DNA from: a virus
Length of the DNA stretch: 25,263 nt
IMG/VR virus record: IMGVR_UViG_3300028188_000025
Location: 1 to 25,263 of that record
Direction: 5' to 3' (one strand)
This document shows positions 6,040 to 14,458 of the stretch, in pieces (within the stretch, counting starts at the first letter, position 1; every line of letters starts with the position of its first letter). A program made the translations under genes and the position numbers. The notes below the pieces were generated by a model. The model was not told the DNA's origin. It ran no database searches and saw only the letters and a list, made by a program, of their open reading frames with translations.

Positions 6040-7116
6040 ATGAAAGTATATTACATAAGTTCAAAATATGATGGCTGTAATTATCTGCGATGCCAATTAC
6101 CAATGTACGTAAACGGTTGGAACGGAACAAGGACAGATAATAGTGGCAAAGAGAAGCCAATGAAATTCATCCTGCCAGAAATAATGGACGCAGACATAGT
6201 AGTATTTCACAGGGCAGATACAATACAACATCATCAGCTTGGAAGAGAGTTGAAAAAAATGGGTAAGAAGATTGTATTCGATAATGACGATACATATAAG
6301 CTAGACGATGAACACCCATTTCACATGCTAGATGAAAATGGCTTCAAAGAAAATAAGAGAAGAAAGAATAACTTAATAGATAATTTTATTCTCAATTCAG
6401 ACTTAGTTACTTGCACAACAGAATTCTTAGCAGACGAATATAGAGAGATAAGTCCAAACGTAGTCGTCTTACCAAATTGTGTAGATCAATTCGATTGGGA
6501 TGAACCAATAAGGAACGAGGGCGACAAGGTTCGCATCGGAGTAGTTGGTTCAGTAGCATATAATCATGACTTTCAACACGTCAAAGATTATATAACTGAA
6601 TTAAACAAGAGAGATGATGTACAGCTTGTCTTGTTCGGACTTCATGGAATAAAACGCCAAAAGGAAAATAGACTCGTTAGAAGAGTATATAGAAAAGAAT
6701 TTGAGTTTTGGAACAACCTTGAAGGGCTTGAACATGTAGAGTGGTGTGAATTCAAAGACTATTTTAGAACATTGAATGAACTGAAATTAGACTTGATGAT
6801 TATACCAAGAGCTGAAAAAGATTTTAACAGGGCAAAGTCCAATGTTAAATTCTTGGAAGCAGCGATGCTAGAGATACCTGTTATAGCACAGGGGTTTACA
6901 ACAAATGATTCTCCATACGACAAAGATCTAAACGGAAAGAATGGCATTCTCATAAAGGACAATTCCAAATGGATGGAAGAGACTGTCAAGCTTATAGAGG
7001 ATAAAGATCTTAGAAGAAAAATTGGTAAAGAAGCTAAGCAATACGTATTGGAAAATTATTCAATAGATAAACATGCCAATAGATGGCGTGAAGAATATAA
7101 TAAATTATTAAAGTAA
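6040..7116 (+). CDS. Glycosyltransferase (GT-B fold, GT4-like)
   Basis: A 358-residue enzyme expected to transfer a sugar from an activated donor. It has two Rossmann-like halves: residues 1-160 with an AD(I/V)VVFHRAD strand region and FDNDDTY; and from IGVVGS (166-171) onward a donor-binding half. The region KSNVKFLEAAMLEIPVIA (266-283) fits the conserved donor-site stretch of GT4-type enzymes, with E273 in the expected acidic position. No signal peptide or membrane segment is seen, so it is cytoplasmic. Its start follows AAAAGC without a Shine-Dalgarno site, exactly like its structural neighbours, 14 bases after the preceding stop. A place inside the virion operon suggests glycosylation of virion or host-surface components late in infection; the acceptor is unknown. 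Confidence 0.8.
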   Translation: MKVYYISSKYDGCNYLRCQLPMYVNGWNGTRTDNSGKEKPMKFILPEIMDADIVVFHRADTIQHHQLGRELKKMGKKIVFDNDDTYKLDDEHPFHMLDENGFKENKRRKNNLIDNFILNSDLVTCTTEFLADEYREISPNVVVLPNCVDQFDWDEPIRNEGDKVRIGVVGSVAYNHDFQHVKDYITELNKRDDVQLVLFGLHGIKRQKENRLVRRVYRKEFEFWNNLEGLEHVEWCEFKDYFRTLNELKLDLMIIPRAEKDFNRAKSNVKFLEAAMLEIPVIAQGFTTNDSPYDKDLNGKNGILIKDNSKWMEETVKLIEDKDLRRKIGKEAKQYVLENYSIDKHANRWREEYNKLLK

Positions 7117-7490: not shown

Positions 7491-8358
7491 TGCTTGGGGG
7501 AAGGTGTGGTCAACAATTAAAGACCACACTTTCAAGGTATCTGTGGACAATCAAGTTGAGTTCCCTGAAATAGTAATCCCAGAGGTTAAGATTCCAGAAC
7601 AACTTGATACCAGAGAAGAACTAACAAACATTGTTAACGCTATAATAAAGCAGACACAGGACCTAAAGATAAGCCCTGATACTTCTGCTACAAAAAAAGA
7701 ACTGTTAGATACCTTAAAGGAAATATCTGAAAGACTTAATGTTGATGAAGAAGAAGAGACAGATGATGAGCAAGAACTAGCCACTGTAAACGAAATTAAG
7801 GCTCTAAGAGACGACTTGAGTGCTATAGCAGGTAAACTACCTAAAACAGATTTAAAGCCCGTACAGAGCCAAATAGAGGCTCTCACGAAGACACTAGACT
7901 TCAGTGGTCTAAAGAAGTTCACAAGATTCACAGATATTAGGGTATTCATCAATGAGAAACAATTTGAGAAACTAGCCAAATCTATGGGTAGCGTTATAGC
8001 TACATCTGGTGGCTCAGGTCAAATCAAGAATGCCTCTGGAGTAATCAGTGATGATAATCCATTAGCGGTGAAAGTTGATAGTGAAGGTGGAACAGCTACA
8101 GCAACTGAGGGTTCTGGTGCAATTACAGTTGGTAGTTCATCTACATCTGTAGTATCAGCAAATGCTGATCGTAAAAGAATTATAATGGTTAACGATAGTG
8201 ATGAACCAATCTATCTTGCTTATGGAGAAGCCGCTGTAATGAATCAAGGAATAAGGTTGAATGCTTCTGGTGGAGCAATGATTGATGATATTTGGTTAGG
8301 TACAATATTTGCTATCTGTTCATCAGGTTCAAAAGAACTAACTTATATTGAAATCTAA
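7453..8358 (+). CDS. Virion decoration or head-tail structural protein (putative)
   Basis: A 301-residue protein in two parts. Residues about 1-170 are helical, with EFPEIVIPEVKIPEQLDTRE near the front and coiled-coil-prone charged stretches. Residues about 185-301 form a Gly/Ser/Thr-rich beta domain (SGGSGQIKNASGVISDDN, then RKRIIMVNDSDEPIYLAYG and LTYIEI at the end) like the small beta-sandwich domains at the ends of phage decoration and adaptor proteins. The start overlaps the previous gene by 38 bases, and the TAA of this gene overlaps the next ATG by one base. No catalytic residues are evident. Confidence 0.55.
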   Translation: MENLVKIKILINNAWGKVWSTIKDHTFKVSVDNQVEFPEIVIPEVKIPEQLDTREELTNIVNAIIKQTQDLKISPDTSATKKELLDTLKEISERLNVDEEEETDDEQELATVNEIKALRDDLSAIAGKLPKTDLKPVQSQIEALTKTLDFSGLKKFTRFTDIRVFINEKQFEKLAKSMGSVIATSGGSGQIKNASGVISDDNPLAVKVDSEGGTATATEGSGAITVGSSSTSVVSANADRKRIIMVNDSDEPIYLAYGEAAVMNQGIRLNASGGAMIDDIWLGTIFAICSSGSKELTYIEI

Positions 8359-10403
8359 TGAAAGATATTTTTAATCCAAGATCAAATACTGATTTAGTTA
8401 CAAGACCAGAATGGAATCAGAATGGTTTTGAGACAGCTGGCTCTGCCAACACAGATTCAGTGATGACTTTTGTAGATGGTACTAGAACATTTTCAATACA
8501 GCCAAGTGGTGCTGCTAGCTTTGATTACTGGATAGCTGGTGTTAAATACACTACTACAGGAGATACTGTTCAGTTAAGTGGTACAGCTACTACTGCAGAC
8601 GAAGGTATTTGGGTTATTCATTATGTTGGCGATACTTTAACTGCTACACAAAATCCTAATAGTGGACAAGTAGATTCAGTAATAAGAACTGGGGCTATTT
8701 GTGCGATTCTTTATTGGAATGCTACTGACGAAGAACTTATTTATTTTGGTGAAGAACGACACGGCAAATCTATGAGTCCATCAACTCACTCCTACCTTCA
8801 TTTTGTTAATGGACTAGAATATATATCTGGATTAGCTCTTACTGATATTATTGCAGATGGTTCAGGAGCAACAGATGAAGCACAATTTGGAGTTGATGCT
8901 GGTGGAGTTTCAGATGAAGATATATATGATGCTATAAGTGCTGTTACTTCAACTACAGGATTACCTATTTATTATATGTTAGGTGCTACTCCTCGTTGGG
9001 TTAAATATACAGAAGCTGGATTCAGTATGAGAACACTAGACGGAACAACTGCTGATAGACTTGCTTATAATCAATATACAGGTGGTGCTTGGCAACTTAC
9101 TGAAGTAGGTAATAATGATTTTGTACTTTGTCATGTATTTGCAACTACAGAAAAAGACAACCCAATGATAGCTATAATGGGTCAAGCAGATTATGCTACT
9201 AAGAAATTAGCTAGAGCAGGAGCTTTAGTAGAGATTAAAAGTTTAATTACAAATGATGTTCTTTTCCCAGAGATAAGACCAATAGGTACAGTAATATTTC
9301 AAACCAATACAGGGTATGCTAGTGCTATAAATGGAAAGATAGTTAGCACAGATGAAGGTGATGATTATGTAGATTGGAGAAGTGAAACTATTTCAAGGGT
9401 AGCCATAAGCACAACTGACCATGGTTCTTTAACAGGCTTAGGAGATGATGACCATACACAATATGCTTTACTTGCTGGTAGATCTGGTGGACAAACAGTA
9501 ATAGGTGGCACAGATGCTAGTGATGATTTAACTTTACAATCTACAAGTAACGCAACAAAAGGAAAAATTATACTTGGGACCAGTGCTTATGATGAAGTAA
9601 ATAATAGACTTGGTATTGGTACTAGCACACCAACTTATCCTGTAACAGTTGTTGGAAGTATTTACGCTTCAGGTTCTCATTTAATGGCTAATAATCAATC
9701 GTTATCATGGGGAGATAGTTCAACAAAAATAACTGGTAATTCTACTACTGATGTTATGACATTAACTGCTGGTGCTAATGTAGTTACGGTAGCAGAGATG
9801 GAAGCAGCCTATGACCATGTTGCCGCTAATGGTTCAAGTCATAGTTATATTAATCAAGATGTTACTACTACTGCTAGTCCAGAGTTTGCTAGTGTTGTTC
9901 TTACACCAAGTACAGACCCTGATGTAGATGAAGCTGGAGAATTATCATGGGATTCAGATGAAGAAGCTATCAGAGGTTATAGTACCGATAATACAGCTCA
10001 GGTAGTAATGAGCCAAGTAAAGAAGACTATTACTTTCTCAGTTCAATTAGCTGATAAGATTGCTACACACTCAGGAAGATCAACGCAGTCATTCTGTGTC
10101 TGGCAAAACAATACTGGATTTACTTTTAATATAACTAGAATTCATGCTAATTCAGATATTCTTGATTATGTGTTTGACCTGTTTAAATCAAGTAGTGAAA
10201 CGGATATAGGTGTTGCTAATGATACGTTATTACATAATGTTGAAGTTAGTGAAGAAGGTACAAGTTGTTCTTATATAAGCGTAACATCACCAACTGTTGA
10301 TACGATTGAGACAGGAAAATGGCTTATATTTGAACACAATGATGAAACATCTAAAGCTTTAACAGTTAATATAGAGGGTTATTTTGATGCTAATGTAGAT
10401 TAA
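8358..10403 (+). CDS. Tail fibre protein
   Basis: A 681-residue Gly/Ser/Thr-rich beta protein, the likely host-recognition fibre. The N-terminal half (to about residue 345) contains a virion-attachment-like beta region. DHGSLTGLGDDDHTQYALL (354-372) is the well-known phage-fibre signature, followed by GRSGGQTVIGGTDASDDLTL. A GIGTSTPTYPVTVVGS stretch (419-434) and TTTASPEFASVVLT (503-516) are the trimeric-fibre repeat types of T4-like fibres. The C-terminal 130 residues are a separate beta domain that probably contacts the receptor. Start and stop overlap the neighbouring genes by one base (TAATG), so translation is likely coupled. Confidence 0.8.
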   Translation: MKDIFNPRSNTDLVTRPEWNQNGFETAGSANTDSVMTFVDGTRTFSIQPSGAASFDYWIAGVKYTTTGDTVQLSGTATTADEGIWVIHYVGDTLTATQNPNSGQVDSVIRTGAICAILYWNATDEELIYFGEERHGKSMSPSTHSYLHFVNGLEYISGLALTDIIADGSGATDEAQFGVDAGGVSDEDIYDAISAVTSTTGLPIYYMLGATPRWVKYTEAGFSMRTLDGTTADRLAYNQYTGGAWQLTEVGNNDFVLCHVFATTEKDNPMIAIMGQADYATKKLARAGALVEIKSLITNDVLFPEIRPIGTVIFQTNTGYASAINGKIVSTDEGDDYVDWRSETISRVAISTTDHGSLTGLGDDDHTQYALLAGRSGGQTVIGGTDASDDLTLQSTSNATKGKIILGTSAYDEVNNRLGIGTSTPTYPVTVVGSIYASGSHLMANNQSLSWGDSSTKITGNSTTDVMTLTAGANVVTVAEMEAAYDHVAANGSSHSYINQDVTTTASPEFASVVLTPSTDPDVDEAGELSWDSDEEAIRGYSTDNTAQVVMSQVKKTITFSVQLADKIATHSGRSTQSFCVWQNNTGFTFNITRIHANSDILDYVFDLFKSSSETDIGVANDTLLHNVEVSEEGTSCSYISVTSPTVDTIETGKWLIFEHNDETSKALTVNIEGYFDANVD

Positions 10404-11002
10404 TGATAGAAGTAAAATTACAACCTAGAGAAAAGAATCATCCAGCTGTTGGACACTTACAATGGTGGGGCAGAAAAGGACATTTTTGGGACATGGATTT
10501 TATTGAGCATGCTAGTAAAGAACAACTAGATACTCTACAAGATGCTTTAGAGGAGGTTATTGTTCAGTTAGTTCCAGAGTTAATAGATTTAATAATAGAT
10601 ATTGAGGTTTGTGGTTCTTATGCTTATGGAATACAAAGATGCTGGTCAGACTTTGATATTCAATTAGTAGCTAAGAATCAGGAAGACCAAAAAAAGGTTG
10701 AAAAGATATTAGCAAGCAAATCTAATTTATTACATATTACTTGTTATGAGTTATCTGTGAGATTGAAACACAATATAGAAATACATTATAGCGTACATAA
10801 TAATAAGGAAACTGGTGTGGAAGTTTATTCTTTAAGGGAAAGAAAGTTATATAATCGTGAAGAGGGAAAAAGAATGTCAGAAAATTACCGAAGGAGATTT
10901 AATAAAGAAACTCATAGCTACAATGTATCATTAAGAGAACCACCAATTATTACTACTGTTTATTGGGATGATGATGGTAATGAAACGGAGGAAATAATAT
11001 AA
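10403..11002 (+). CDS. Nucleotidyltransferase-like protein (pol-beta superfamily motif)
   Basis: A 199-residue protein with the signature of minimal nucleotidyltransferases: GSYAYG (71-76) followed by SDFD (82-85, D83 and D85 as candidate metal ligands), on a VCGS strand preceded by helix VIVQLVPELIDLIIDIE. E126 in NIEIHY is a candidate third acidic residue. The family transfers NMP groups to proteins, RNA or small molecules. The N-terminal 50 residues have an aromatic-rich GHLQWWGRKGHFWDMDF segment that I do not recognise, and the C-terminal 50 are Arg/Asn-rich. It is flanked on both sides by structural genes with 1-base overlaps, so it is co-translated with the tail fibre. An A/T-rich leader is replaced here by GGAGG 10 bases before the next gene. 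Substrate unknown. Confidence 0.65.
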   Translation: MIEVKLQPREKNHPAVGHLQWWGRKGHFWDMDFIEHASKEQLDTLQDALEEVIVQLVPELIDLIIDIEVCGSYAYGIQRCWSDFDIQLVAKNQEDQKKVEKILASKSNLLHITCYELSVRLKHNIEIHYSVHNNKETGVEVYSLRERKLYNREEGKRMSENYRRRFNKETHSYNVSLREPPIITTVYWDDDGNETEEII

Positions 11003-11577
11003 TGGCATTTACAAAAACATTTAATGGTTCTACTGAGGATGGGTATGGCACTACTTCTGGTGTGAATACTGCTGCAACAACAATGTTAGTTGGTGCTGGG
11101 TCATCTTCTCAACAAGATCTTGATACTAAAGAGTTTCATTCTTTCATGTTCTTTGATACTTCTTCATTACCAGATAATTGTGTGGTAATTACAGTAAAAC
11201 TTAATTGGAGAGTAACCAGTTTTGCTGGTAGTGATAGGGCTATTACTAATAAAGTTTATATTGGTAGCAACACGATAGGCTCAACATTAGAAGCGGCTGA
11301 CTATGGAGATACCATAACTAATGGAGTATTACTTGGTAGTATGACTTTAAATACTGCTGGAGCAAAAACCTTGTCTAGTTCAAGTTCAGTTATTACAGGT
11401 GAAGTTAATTTAACTGGTTATACTAATATAGAAATGGATGCTTATTGGAATTCGTCTATCGGGCCATCATCTTGTATGATTACTATTGCTACTCAAGATA
11501 ATGGTACATCTGCATATAGACCAACATTAGAAGTAACCTATGAAATACCACAAATAATCAGCGTAAATATAATATAA
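11002..11577 (+). CDS. Virion beta-sandwich protein (DNRLRE-like)
   Basis: A 191-residue Ser/Thr/Gly-rich beta protein. FMFFDTSSLPDNCVV followed by VKLNWRVTS and a final YRPTLEVTYE is the pattern of the DNRLRE-type beta-sandwich, in which the short aliphatic/aromatic-DTSSLP segment begins a strand and the end is YRPTLxVxY. In phages such domains occur in fibres and surface proteins and may bind sugar. The same fold seems to recur inside the gene at 15350 (around residues 455-635). It is co-translated with the enzyme upstream (TAATG) and the repeat protein follows after 1 base. No enzyme motif is seen. Confidence 0.6.
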   Translation: MAFTKTFNGSTEDGYGTTSGVNTAATTMLVGAGSSSQQDLDTKEFHSFMFFDTSSLPDNCVVITVKLNWRVTSFAGSDRAITNKVYIGSNTIGSTLEAADYGDTITNGVLLGSMTLNTAGAKTLSSSSSVITGEVNLTGYTNIEMDAYWNSSIGPSSCMITIATQDNGTSAYRPTLEVTYEIPQIISVNII

Positions 11578-11578
11578 A

Positions 11579-11827
11579 ATGTCTATACAAAAATCATTAA
11601 ATAATTTAGTTGGCACAAATAATCTATCAGCACAAGAAGCTGCTAATCTTTTAGTTGGAAAGACTGGATTATCATTACAAGATGCACTACAAGAATATGC
11701 TGGAATTACTACAGGTTCAGCACAAGATGCATTAAATAAATTAAATGGAACTGGTGGAATATCATTAGCAGATAGTCTTACAAATATAGATGTGACGTTA
11801 GACAATCTAACAGTAAGTAAAATATAA
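11579..11827 (+). CDS. Protein made of 15-residue tandem repeats
   Basis: An 82-residue protein that is almost entirely repeats. Residues 10-24, 25-39, 40-54 and 55-69 are four units of about 15 residues with consensus LxGxxGLSxQDALxx, and residues 2-9 look like half a further unit. The last 13 residues (IDVTLDNLTVSKI) are different. The alternation of small hydrophobic positions suggests a compact solenoid or helical rod. Similar repeats occur in short phage virion proteins, but I cannot name a function. It sits 1 base after the beta-sandwich gene and 1 base before a membrane protein gene, so it is surely part of the same operon. Confidence 0.6.
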   Translation: MSIQKSLNNLVGTNNLSAQEAANLLVGKTGLSLQDALQEYAGITTGSAQDALNKLNGTGGISLADSLTNIDVTLDNLTVSKI

Positions 11828-11828
11828 T

Positions 11829-12056
11829 ATGAGTGAAAATCAAGCAACCATGATAATTGAACTTCTTAATTCTTTTAAGACAGATAATAAAGAAGAACAT
11901 TATCAAATAATTAAACGTCTTGATAAGACAAACGGTAATGTTTCAAAAAATACTGAACATAGACAACGATTTGAAGGTGGTTTTGGTGTTATTAAATGGA
12001 TACTTGGTTTTGTTGGATTAGGAAATATAGTTATTTTATTAAAATTATTTATATAA
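11829..12056 (+). CDS. Small membrane-anchored protein (XhlA-like, candidate lysis protein)
   Basis: A 75-residue protein with a polar, coiled-coil-prone N-terminal part (about 1-48) containing a KRLDKTNGNVSKNTEHRQR stretch and one hydrophobic C-terminal segment (about 54-75, VIKWILGFVGLGNIVILLKL). This layout, a helical soluble domain followed by a C-terminal membrane helix, is that of the XhlA family found with phage lysis genes. It could also be a virion membrane protein. It is the last gene before a new promoter, with about 90 bases before the following gene. No T-run terminator is seen after it. Confidence 0.45.
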   Translation: MSENQATMIIELLNSFKTDNKEEHYQIIKRLDKTNGNVSKNTEHRQRFEGGFGVIKWILGFVGLGNIVILLKLFI

Positions 12057-12094
12057 TAGTTCTTTACAATTAGTGGGTTATATTGTCTAATGAC

Positions 12095-12123
12095 TTGACA
12101 AGCATATCTTTTTGTGCTATACT
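12095..12123 (+). promoter_or_regulatory. Strong promoter of the HNH/phosphoesterase cassette
   Basis: TTGACA (12095-12100), a 17-base spacer and TATACT (12118-12123) preceded by TGC give an extended -10 promoter nearly identical in layout to the one at 313-341. Upstream short inverted repeats (ACAAT/ATTGT, ATTAG/CTAAT) around 12066-12090 could be operator sites, but are too short to call. A strong Shine-Dalgarno site and ATG follow at 12135 and 12147. Confidence 0.8.
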
Positions 12124-12134
12124 TTAAACATCAC

Positions 12135-12141
12135 AAGGAGG
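12135..12141 (+). promoter_or_regulatory. Strong Shine-Dalgarno site
   Basis: AAGGAGG lies 5 bases before the ATG at 12147 and so decides that start over the upstream in-frame GTG at 12114. The next two genes also have such sites: GGAGGAA at 12304-12310 before a GTG at 12313, and AGGAG at 12573-12577 before the ATG at 12585. Almost no other gene in the window has one. Confidence 0.85.
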
Positions 12142-12146
12142 ACATA

Positions 12147-12335
12147 ATGAGAGAATGTATTCATCGATTCAAGTATCGTAATACAACGAAACTTGATGGT
12201 CATCCGTTCGTAACACTGTTTGATCGTAAACTCGGCATCATTATCTTCATTGATAACAATGCCTTCACAGCCGAACCACAGAGATGGTTAAAGGAAAAAT
12301 TCTGGAGGAATCGTGAAGAAAAAACACAAAGGTAA
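12147..12335 (+). CDS. Small protein of unknown function, first gene of the SD-led cassette
   Basis: A 62-residue protein (CIHRFKYRNTTKLDGHPF at the front, LFDRKLGIIIFIDNNAF in the middle) with a hydrophobic strand at residues about 30-37 and a basic C-terminus. No known domain is recognised and no membrane anchor is convincing. It follows a strong promoter and AAGGAGG. Its last 23 bases overlap the HNH gene. Its sequence has more C in codon third positions than nearby structural genes. Being the first gene it may be an accessory or regulatory factor for the HNH nuclease; that is only inference. Confidence 0.55.
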   Translation: MRECIHRFKYRNTTKLDGHPFVTLFDRKLGIIIFIDNNAFTAEPQRWLKEKFWRNREEKTQR

Positions 12336-12588
12336 ACAGAAATTAAAATGCAGTAAGAAAAAGAATAAGCATCACATCAGACCTAAATCAAGGGGTGGCG
12401 GTGGTGGTGAAAACCTCGTATTACTGTGTATGGCATGTCATAACAAACTTCATCATGATTTCGGAACAATGACTCCAGATGAAATTATTGCCTTTCTAGT
12501 AACTCATTACTGGAATGACCAATGGTTCTGGGTTAAGAAATCACTTGATAAGTTTTCACATATTAACAAGTTAGGAGAAAAAGTATGA
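12313..12588 (+). CDS. HNH endonuclease
   Basis: A 91-residue, strongly basic HNH nuclease. The motif is complete: HH (H20, H21) in KHHIRPKSRGG, N34 in ENLVLLC, C39 plus C42-H43 in CMACHNK, and HH (H47-H48). The pattern is HHIRPxSxGG-NLVLLC-xxCHNxLHH with a short Gly linker (GGGGG). HNH proteins of this size nick or cut DNA and may assist packaging, act as homing-type nucleases, or degrade DNA. The start is a GTG placed right after GGAGGAA. It is the only gene in the window to stop with TGA, overlapping the next ATG by 4 bases (ATGA). Confidence 0.85.
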   Translation: MKKKHKGKQKLKCSKKKNKHHIRPKSRGGGGGENLVLLCMACHNKLHHDFGTMTPDEIIAFLVTHYWNDQWFWVKKSLDKFSHINKLGEKV

Positions 12589-13385
12589 AAAAGCAGAAAG
12601 TAGTAGGTAACGATAAGATCGGCAAACTTATCCGTTGCAACAACCACACTCTAAAGCCCAATAAAAAGGGTTACGTAGAGATTATCTTCTGGGGAGACGT
12701 TCATTATGGACACCCTCAGTGTGACATCAAAAAGGCACTTGCCATGCTTGATTACTGCATTAAGAACGACATCTATGTTATAGGCATGGGTGATATGCTC
12801 GAGTGCGGTACTCGTTTATCCATTGGCGATTCTGTTTACAAGCAGAATCTCAACCCTCAGGAACAAATGGAAGATATGCTTGAATTTTTAAAGCCTATCG
12901 TTGACTCTGGCTTACTACTTGGTCTCCACTCTGGAAACCATGAAGACAGAATTTCAAACATGTCTAGTCTGAACATAACCAAGAACATGTGCAGAGAGCT
13001 TGGAGTTCCCTACTTGGGCGGTGCTATGTGGCACAAACTCAAAGTTGGGAAAATCAACTACTCACTCTATACCATGCACGGTGCTGGTGGTGCTCAGTTC
13101 GTTCATACCAAACTTGGTAGGGCAGTGCAAATTGCCAACAACTTCTGGTGCGATGTATTCGCAATGGGACACGTACACGCCAAGGCTTGTGAGCCAATTG
13201 AGAGACAAAGGCTCAACATCCGTAACAAGGTTGTAGAGCAATTCAAGATGTACATTGTACTAACTGGTTCTTGGCTTACTTATGACAGGTCCTACGCTCA
13301 GACTTCTGGGTATGGTCCTGCCACAATAGGTAGTCCAAAGATTAAGTTATTTTCTGAAAGACGGAAAATTCATGGATCGACATAA
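12585..13385 (+). CDS. Calcineurin-like metallophosphoesterase
   Basis: A 266-residue enzyme with all five metal-site motifs: GDVHYGH (37-43), GMGDM (67-71, D70), GNHED (117-121), MHG (H165) and GHVHA (195-199). The family hydrolyses phosphoester bonds in nucleotides, DNA ends, RNA or phosphoproteins. The substrate cannot be inferred. It is cytoplasmic, with no signal peptide or membrane segment. It is joined to the HNH gene by a 4-base overlap and preceded by AGGAG. By eye it has a higher G+C than its flanks (about 40-50 percent in several 60-base lines) and uses more CTC and TGC codons. Pairing with an HNH nuclease suggests a role in DNA end processing. Confidence 0.88.
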   Translation: MKKQKVVGNDKIGKLIRCNNHTLKPNKKGYVEIIFWGDVHYGHPQCDIKKALAMLDYCIKNDIYVIGMGDMLECGTRLSIGDSVYKQNLNPQEQMEDMLEFLKPIVDSGLLLGLHSGNHEDRISNMSSLNITKNMCRELGVPYLGGAMWHKLKVGKINYSLYTMHGAGGAQFVHTKLGRAVQIANNFWCDVFAMGHVHAKACEPIERQRLNIRNKVVEQFKMYIVLTGSWLTYDRSYAQTSGYGPATIGSPKIKLFSERRKIHGST

Positions 13386-13450: not shown

Positions 13451-14458
13451 ATGTGTTTTAAAAAGAAAAATATGAATCATGGCTATTTAGAAAGAGAAGA
13501 AGAACCAGAGGATTATATCGTTGGTGCTTCTGGCATAGAACATATCGTTAGATTACCAGATGGTAATTGGTCTAACTTTCTACCAGCTGACGAACTACAA
13601 AGAAAGGGAGGCGTAGAAACAATGTCTTGTGTATCATTCGGTGCAACAAGTGCCATTGAAATGCAGATAAACCTTTTACTCAATAGTGGAATGCTTACAT
13701 CAAGAGCTAGAGAGTTTTTATCTGCTTACATGATAGATGGTAAGGTAAACTTCTCAGACAAATATATCGCCATTAAATCAGAGACTACACCACAGGGAAA
13801 CTACCTAACTAAAGTAGCACAGACAATTAGAGAGGTTGGCCTTATACCTGAGAGCATGTTGCCATTTGGTAACCCTGAAAGCTGGGGAGAATATCATAAC
13901 GCAGCACAGATTACAGCAGAGATGGATGCACTTGGACAACAATTCTTAGAACTATTTGTTATACAATATGAATGGGTACTCACACCTAATTCATCTGCTG
14001 GAAAGACCTTTGATGAAAATGGTGCTACTAGAATGCACCACTTGAAACAAGCTCCATTGTTAATTGCATCACATGGGCACTGTACAGATTTTTACTTCGC
14101 AATACACAAACAGAAGTATGGACAATACGATAGTTATAGTCCGTTTAGAAAAGAAAAGAATTGGAAGTATCACGTTCCATATACAATGAAGATACTCATT
14201 ACAGAGAAGTCAGAGTTTACAGAGGCTGAGATGACAGAGGCTAGACGTTTTGCCTTAGAACTTGTATCAGGAAAGCCATCTCGTATAGGATTTAGACACG
14301 AAGCTGCTGGAGAGGCTTACAGAATAGAAGAAGATGGAAGTTTAAAATATAAACGTGGCGTACCTTGTCCACTGTTTACCTCATTATGTGCTGATGGCAC
14401 TGTCTGGGGTATCAACGAAGAGACGTGGGAACGCTTACGTGCAGGATTAATTAAGTAA
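13451..14458 (+). CDS. Papain-like cysteine peptidase (C1-type, phage-encoded)
   Basis: A 335-residue protein resembling phage C1-type peptidases. Candidate nucleophile C60 lies in MSCVSFGA (58-65), followed by an alpha-helix (AIEMQINLLL). FSDKYIAIKSETTPQGNYL (101-119) and VGLIPESMLPF (129-139) match a segment conserved in phage relatives. H208 or H210 in SHGHCTD is the candidate general base, with D227-S228-Y229 further on as the third-site stretch. The C-terminus (RRGVPC-LFTSLCADGTVWGI region) is unassigned. No signal peptide is clear. An ATG at 13472 (AAAAATATG leader) is an alternative start. It is followed after 9 bases by a small hydrophobic protein, so a lysis role, or processing of virion proteins, is possible. 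Confidence 0.7.
   Translation: MCFKKKNMNHGYLEREEEPEDYIVGASGIEHIVRLPDGNWSNFLPADELQRKGGVETMSCVSFGATSAIEMQINLLLNSGMLTSRAREFLSAYMIDGKVNFSDKYIAIKSETTPQGNYLTKVAQTIREVGLIPESMLPFGNPESWGEYHNAAQITAEMDALGQQFLELFVIQYEWVLTPNSSAGKTFDENGATRMHHLKQAPLLIASHGHCTDFYFAIHKQKYGQYDSYSPFRKEKNWKYHVPYTMKILITEKSEFTEAEMTEARRFALELVSGKPSRIGFRHEAAGEAYRIEEDGSLKYKRGVPCPLFTSLCADGTVWGINEETWERLRAGLIK

Follow-up and report, generated by a model that had tools for sequence, protein, structure and literature searches.

The stretch of DNA analysed here (hereafter, the window) is the whole 25,263-base virus record IMGVR_UViG_3300028188_000025 from IMG/VR, which represents a tailed phage, judging by its terminase, major capsid protein, SU10-type adaptor and fibre-like genes. 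Neither Rfam RNAs nor tRNA genes were found in it. Our attention was focused on three consecutive genes, coding for a fibre-like protein, a nucleotidyltransferase-like protein (below, the enzyme) and a putative beta-sandwich protein (below, the partner), with the following features:

8358..10403, plus strand: fibre-like protein, 681 aa, assigned by repeat content and position, with no family match
9630..11570, plus strand: unbroken DNA block, 74% identical to a second phage, covering fibre tip, enzyme and partner
10403..11002, plus strand: nucleotidyltransferase-like protein, 199 aa, with an ATG start
10613..10657, plus strand: catalytic motif from G71-S72 to D83-F84-D85 (GSX10DXD), invariant in three lineages
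10778..10780, plus strand: E126, putative third carboxylate for metal binding (h[DE]h strand), invariant in three lineages
11002..11577, plus strand: putative beta-sandwich partner, 191 aa, with a weak DNRLRE-domain match, found beside the enzyme in all three lineages

Just as originally predicted, the enzyme ORF overlaps by one base both the fibre ORF before it and the beta-sandwich-like ORF after it, TAATG being present at each junction. No strong sigma70-like site was found between the fibre, enzyme and partner genes, the best one (at 10776) having 9/12 matches; sigma70-like matches in general were no commoner than chance. Directly 3' of the partner gene there is an 82-aa ORF (11579-11827) made of repeats such as LVGxxxLSxQDAL, for which no family match of note was obtained. 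Further downstream, a strong sigma70-like promoter match (12095-12123; TTGACA-17-TATACT with a TG extension, 11/12) precedes HNH (12313-12588) and metallophosphoesterase-like (12585-13385) ORFs; a separate transcription unit is therefore suggested for these two ORFs. A near-identical copy of the virus was found in IMGVR_UViG_3300024256_000085 (99.9% over 13.9 kb, without any difference across window positions 8903-12499) and, for this reason, it does not constitute independent evidence. The contig of IMGVR_UViG_3300028274_000245 breaks off within a fibre tip 100% identical to that of the window (L017 8001-8345), and probably represents the same virus.

The signature of the enzyme is CGSYAYG-x5-SDFDIQL, with GSYAYG occupying residues 71-76 and SDFD residues 82-85, accompanied by an h[DE]h strand that carries E126 within IEI. 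GSYAYG followed by SDFD had been taken in the original prediction for the hallmark of pol-beta-type nucleotidyltransferases. This holds true, since all three superfamily motifs, hG[GS], [DE]h[DE]h and h[DE]h (listed in PMC7291057), occur in each of the three lineages that we know of, as C70-G71-S72, D83-F84-D85-I86 and I125-E126-I/V (I125-E126-I127 in the window), respectively. E126 would serve as a third metal ligand on a later strand. The motif spacing is exactly GSX10DXD, which passages of PMC7641770 describe for MntA adenylyltransferases, where it was tested by mutation. None of 200,000 shuffles of the enzyme produced the pattern GS.[AS].G.{4,6}SD.D[LIVMF], while a much looser pattern appeared in 0.4% of them.

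Relatives of the enzyme were found by DNA-pattern scans of IMG/VR. The second lineage is represented by IMGVR_UViG_3300009128_000060, with an enzyme 59% identical to that of the window, and the third by a single phage, found twice, in 3300013117_000152 and in 3300009431_000722, with an enzyme 46% identical. Thus, only three lineages are known, all of them uncultured phages from metagenomes. G71, S72, D83, D85 and E126 are invariant across these lineages: the predicted conservation of D83, D85 and E126 is borne out in both independent relatives, and the loss of G71-S72 and D83/D85 that would speak against the prediction is seen at neither 59% nor 46% identity. Two further blocks, the N-terminal HPAxGHxxWWGRxxxFWDMDFIE and YSLxERxLYxRE, are nearly or wholly invariant; lying outside the aligned core, they are markers of the family. 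The dN/dS values of the enzyme gene, 0.30-0.56 with silent sites near saturation in the more distant pairs, indicate purifying selection.

Other searches added no further members. By tblastn, nothing matched the enzyme among 50,697 records of phages and 72,556 of plasmids, and nothing matched the partner among the phage records; two pattern scans of GTDB contigs for the enzyme were negative as well. With the looser DNA pattern GSxxxG-x5-SDFDIQ, the members already known were recovered, all remaining matches being due to chance in other proteins. The fibre tip used as bait retrieved 45 loci, nearly all of them sharing a common fibre repeat alone, and not a single new enzyme relative. Such searches demand fairly close similarity, and therefore the enzyme family may be larger than what is seen here.

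In profile searches, the four best Pfam matches of the enzyme were all nucleotidyltransferase or pol-beta palm models falling in the same place: Polbeta (E 0.002), NTP_transf_2 (E 0.0035), the central palm of MTPAP-like proteins (E 0.008) and DNA_pol_B_palm (E 0.02), each of them below its curated cut-off. When the whole window was searched in six frames with NTP_transf_2 (PF01909; E 3e-5) and Polbeta (PF18765; E 1.3e-5), the enzyme ORF was the only one found, and its relatives match some of the same Pfam models on their own sequence. For profile-profile comparison, we used ten nucleotidyltransferases, nine of them plasmid-borne and the tenth taken from a viral contig. The enzyme family aligned by hhalign to these genuine minimal nucleotidyltransferases with P 9.4e-6 over 34 columns at the motif, versus P 0.78 and 0.15 for two unrelated protein families of the same phages serving as controls. 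Conversely, among the six best non-family matches of the new-family profile in the loci collected here, four were true nucleotidyltransferases. Neither PHROGs nor PADLOC offered anything convincing for the family, and in PDB sequence searches no match was better than E 0.046; the weak ones include DrrA and MntA.

Structure models were of low confidence. AlphaFold2 reached a mean pLDDT of 40 from the single enzyme sequence and of 49.8 from the three sequences. The latter model contains helix 39-56, strands 64-71 and 84-90, helices 93-121 and strand 125-131, an order of elements compatible with a palm, but at a pLDDT of 50. When these models were compared by Foldseek with PDB and BFVD, nothing meaningful was matched; the fourth-ranking BFVD match (E 0.035), to a nucleotidyl transferase from a Ralstonia phage, is only suggestive. 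Overall, the motif, the profile-profile comparison and the invariant catalytic residues uphold the predicted membership, making it very likely that the enzyme belongs to the pol-beta nucleotidyltransferase superfamily. It is also likely, judging from the sequence, that the enzyme is catalytically competent.

The gene order, namely a fibre-like gene, the enzyme and a homologue of the 191-aa partner, is the same in all three lineages. The question raised in the original prediction, whether homologues sit beside fibre genes, can be answered positively for both relatives. Since two other phage lineages show this order, the link between the enzyme and virion genes is now supported more strongly than it was from the window alone. 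At the two junctions, the second phage shows a gap of 2 bases and an overlap of one base, and the third phage a gap of 7 bases and an overlap of 14 bases. With the second phage, the window shares the uninterrupted block at 9630-11570, which begins inside the fibre gene and ends with the partner gene, while the other genes common to both are ordered differently relative to it. The fibre tip contained in this block (residues 412-681) is 69% identical between the two phages. The third phage possesses a C1q-like fibre tip unrelated to that of the window, and the enzyme (46%) and partner (43%) are the best-conserved proteins between these two phages; the next ones reach 25-28%, and blastp detected no terminase or capsid match. 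Thus, the enzyme and the partner form a constant pair combined with a varying fibre tip, and this makes the partner the first candidate substrate. The DNRLRE-domain match of the partner (E 5e-4) lies below the cut-off. Within the N-terminal half of the fibre-like protein, the part with residues 124-358 (window 8727-9431) is similar (28%, E 2e-18) to an unannotated protein in LR756501 and LR756503, both being uncultured 735-kb huge-phage records.

Such evidence induces us to propose, tentatively, that this minimal pol-beta-type nucleotidyltransferase, inherited within a virion surface cassette of fibre, enzyme and beta-sandwich-like partner, nucleotidylates the partner or the fibre. In this scenario, G71-S72, D83, D85 and E126 would bind two metal ions together with an NTP. 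The nucleotide, for which AMP is the best candidate, would be moved to a hydroxyl group of a co-translated neighbour, with the beta-sandwich-like partner as the first acceptor to consider and the fibre as the second. The modification would then alter or mature the host-binding surface. The catalysis itself, the nucleotide, the acceptor and any presence of the enzyme in virions are what we infer here. The proposal follows by analogy from MntA, a GSX10DXD enzyme that adenylylates the product of the neighbouring gene, according to passages of PMC7641770. On the other hand, the order of fibre, enzyme and partner genes may have been kept by joint inheritance, with no functional tie among them.

The MntA antitoxins of HepT/MntA systems (PF01909) resemble the enzyme in motif spacing and small size, and they too place a third carboxylate on a strand further along. 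However, membership in this group is not what the data show: the neighbours of the enzyme are virion genes, none of ten neighbouring proteins scanned matched HEPN, both termini of the enzyme carry conserved blocks, the length is 199 aa versus under 150 aa for MNTs (passages of PMC7641770), and the NCBIfam MntA model scores 13.1 bits against a cut-off of 60. Thus, in spite of the identical motif and of weak matches to MntA (NCBIfam, E 0.064; also in PDB) and to a PADLOC candidate family, we consider an MntA-type antitoxin or a phage-carried defence component highly improbable, and we set the toxin-antitoxin reading aside for want of a HEPN partner among the ten proteins. Accordingly, the enzyme is not filed with MntA, though it may work like MntA. 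Larger AMPylators, such as glutamine synthetase adenylyltransferase and DrrA (in its nucleotidyltransferase domain), bear a GX11DXD catalytic pattern (passages of PMC7641770); they exceed 300 aa, comprise several domains and act on other targets, unlike the 199-aa enzyme, whose similarity to them does not reach significance and is limited to the region of the motif.

The main rival of our proposal is a host-directed role, since the end of the structural genes, where the enzyme gene is located just before small membrane-protein, HNH and peptidase-like ORFs, is a usual place for host-directed genes. The enzyme would then be encoded by a moron or a gene for host takeover at the border between fibre and lysis genes, might enter the cell with the virion and, in the course of infection, would nucleotidylate a host protein or add nucleotides to host RNA or tRNA. 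We find this rather unlikely: morons come and go, whereas the enzyme keeps two kinds of neighbour genes in three lineages that are otherwise mostly unrelated. Phage tRNA nucleotidyltransferase-like proteins do exist and share the three superfamily motifs; they have been reported from Pectobacterium phages (passages of PMC7693777), and gp22 of Klebsiella phage fHe-Kpn01 was toxic to E. coli (passages of PMC7291057), all of these being of the CCA/poly(A) polymerase type according to their authors. The enzyme, however, matches none of the corresponding models, no poly(A) polymerase or CCA-adding head-domain model being present among its Pfam or NCBIfam matches up to E 1; the nearest is the weak MTPAP-like central palm match below the cut-off.

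We regard two more readings as improbable. According to one of them, the nucleotide is added to a sugar, a glycan or another small acceptor with which the virion is decorated. Glycosyltransferase genes lie between the capsid and adaptor genes in all three phages (window 6040-7116; L009 5929-7439 in the second phage; L113 12985 to L114 1409 in the third), small-molecule nucleotidyltransferases exist in the superfamily, and the enzyme has a weak match to ANT(4')-II (E 0.08). But the enzyme gene is coupled to the fibre and partner genes rather than to the glycosyltransferases, which are common in phages, and sugar-nucleotide synthesis normally relies on another fold. Still, the glycosyltransferases of all three cassette phages let us speculate, from these three phages only, that virion decoration may be a common theme. 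The cluster in the third phage includes a PIG-L deacetylase, a UDP-GlcNAc 2-epimerase, a hexapeptide transferase, a radical SAM protein and glycosyltransferases. The other reading sees an inactive structural or chaperone protein built on the nucleotidyltransferase fold, assisting fibre assembly or partner attachment. It would agree with the position between two likely virion genes and with the strongly conserved HPAxGHxxWWGRxxxFWDMDFIE block outside the catalytic core, a possible binding surface. The five catalytic residues, however, are invariant at 46% identity, although over half of the remaining positions differ, which argues against a pure scaffold, as such a protein needs no such invariance.

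What is known here, by superfamily, is the chemistry and the fold; what is new is an enzyme family that reaches no model cut-off in Pfam or NCBIfam. The abstracts and passages of the literature consulted describe neither a nucleotidyltransferase in a fibre operon nor nucleotidylated virion parts, in agreement with the original statement that no described equivalent was known. Our preferred reading, modification of the partner or the fibre by an enzyme whose relatives attach nucleotides to proteins or RNA, points to the possibility that certain phages alter the chemistry of the parts with which they themselves bind the host. The broader idea, that a dedicated phage nucleotidyltransferase acts on the phage's own host-recognition proteins and that enzyme and target are exchanged as one block, is more tentative still. 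If the enzyme does modify the fibre or the partner, receptor binding could be adjusted or matured by chemical means built into the phage, and virion assembly would join the processes that involve AMPylation-type chemistry. If its action lies elsewhere, an enzyme family not filed before, which is inherited together with a fibre cassette and can be recognised between two distant phages more readily than their capsid or terminase proteins, still offers a clear and testable target.

We would also like to comment on the ORFs at window 13451-14458 and at L008 9083-10198 of the second phage, which occupy like positions, are weakly similar to each other (23%, E 0.001) and look peptidase-like by eye; these ORFs may encode lysis enzymes.
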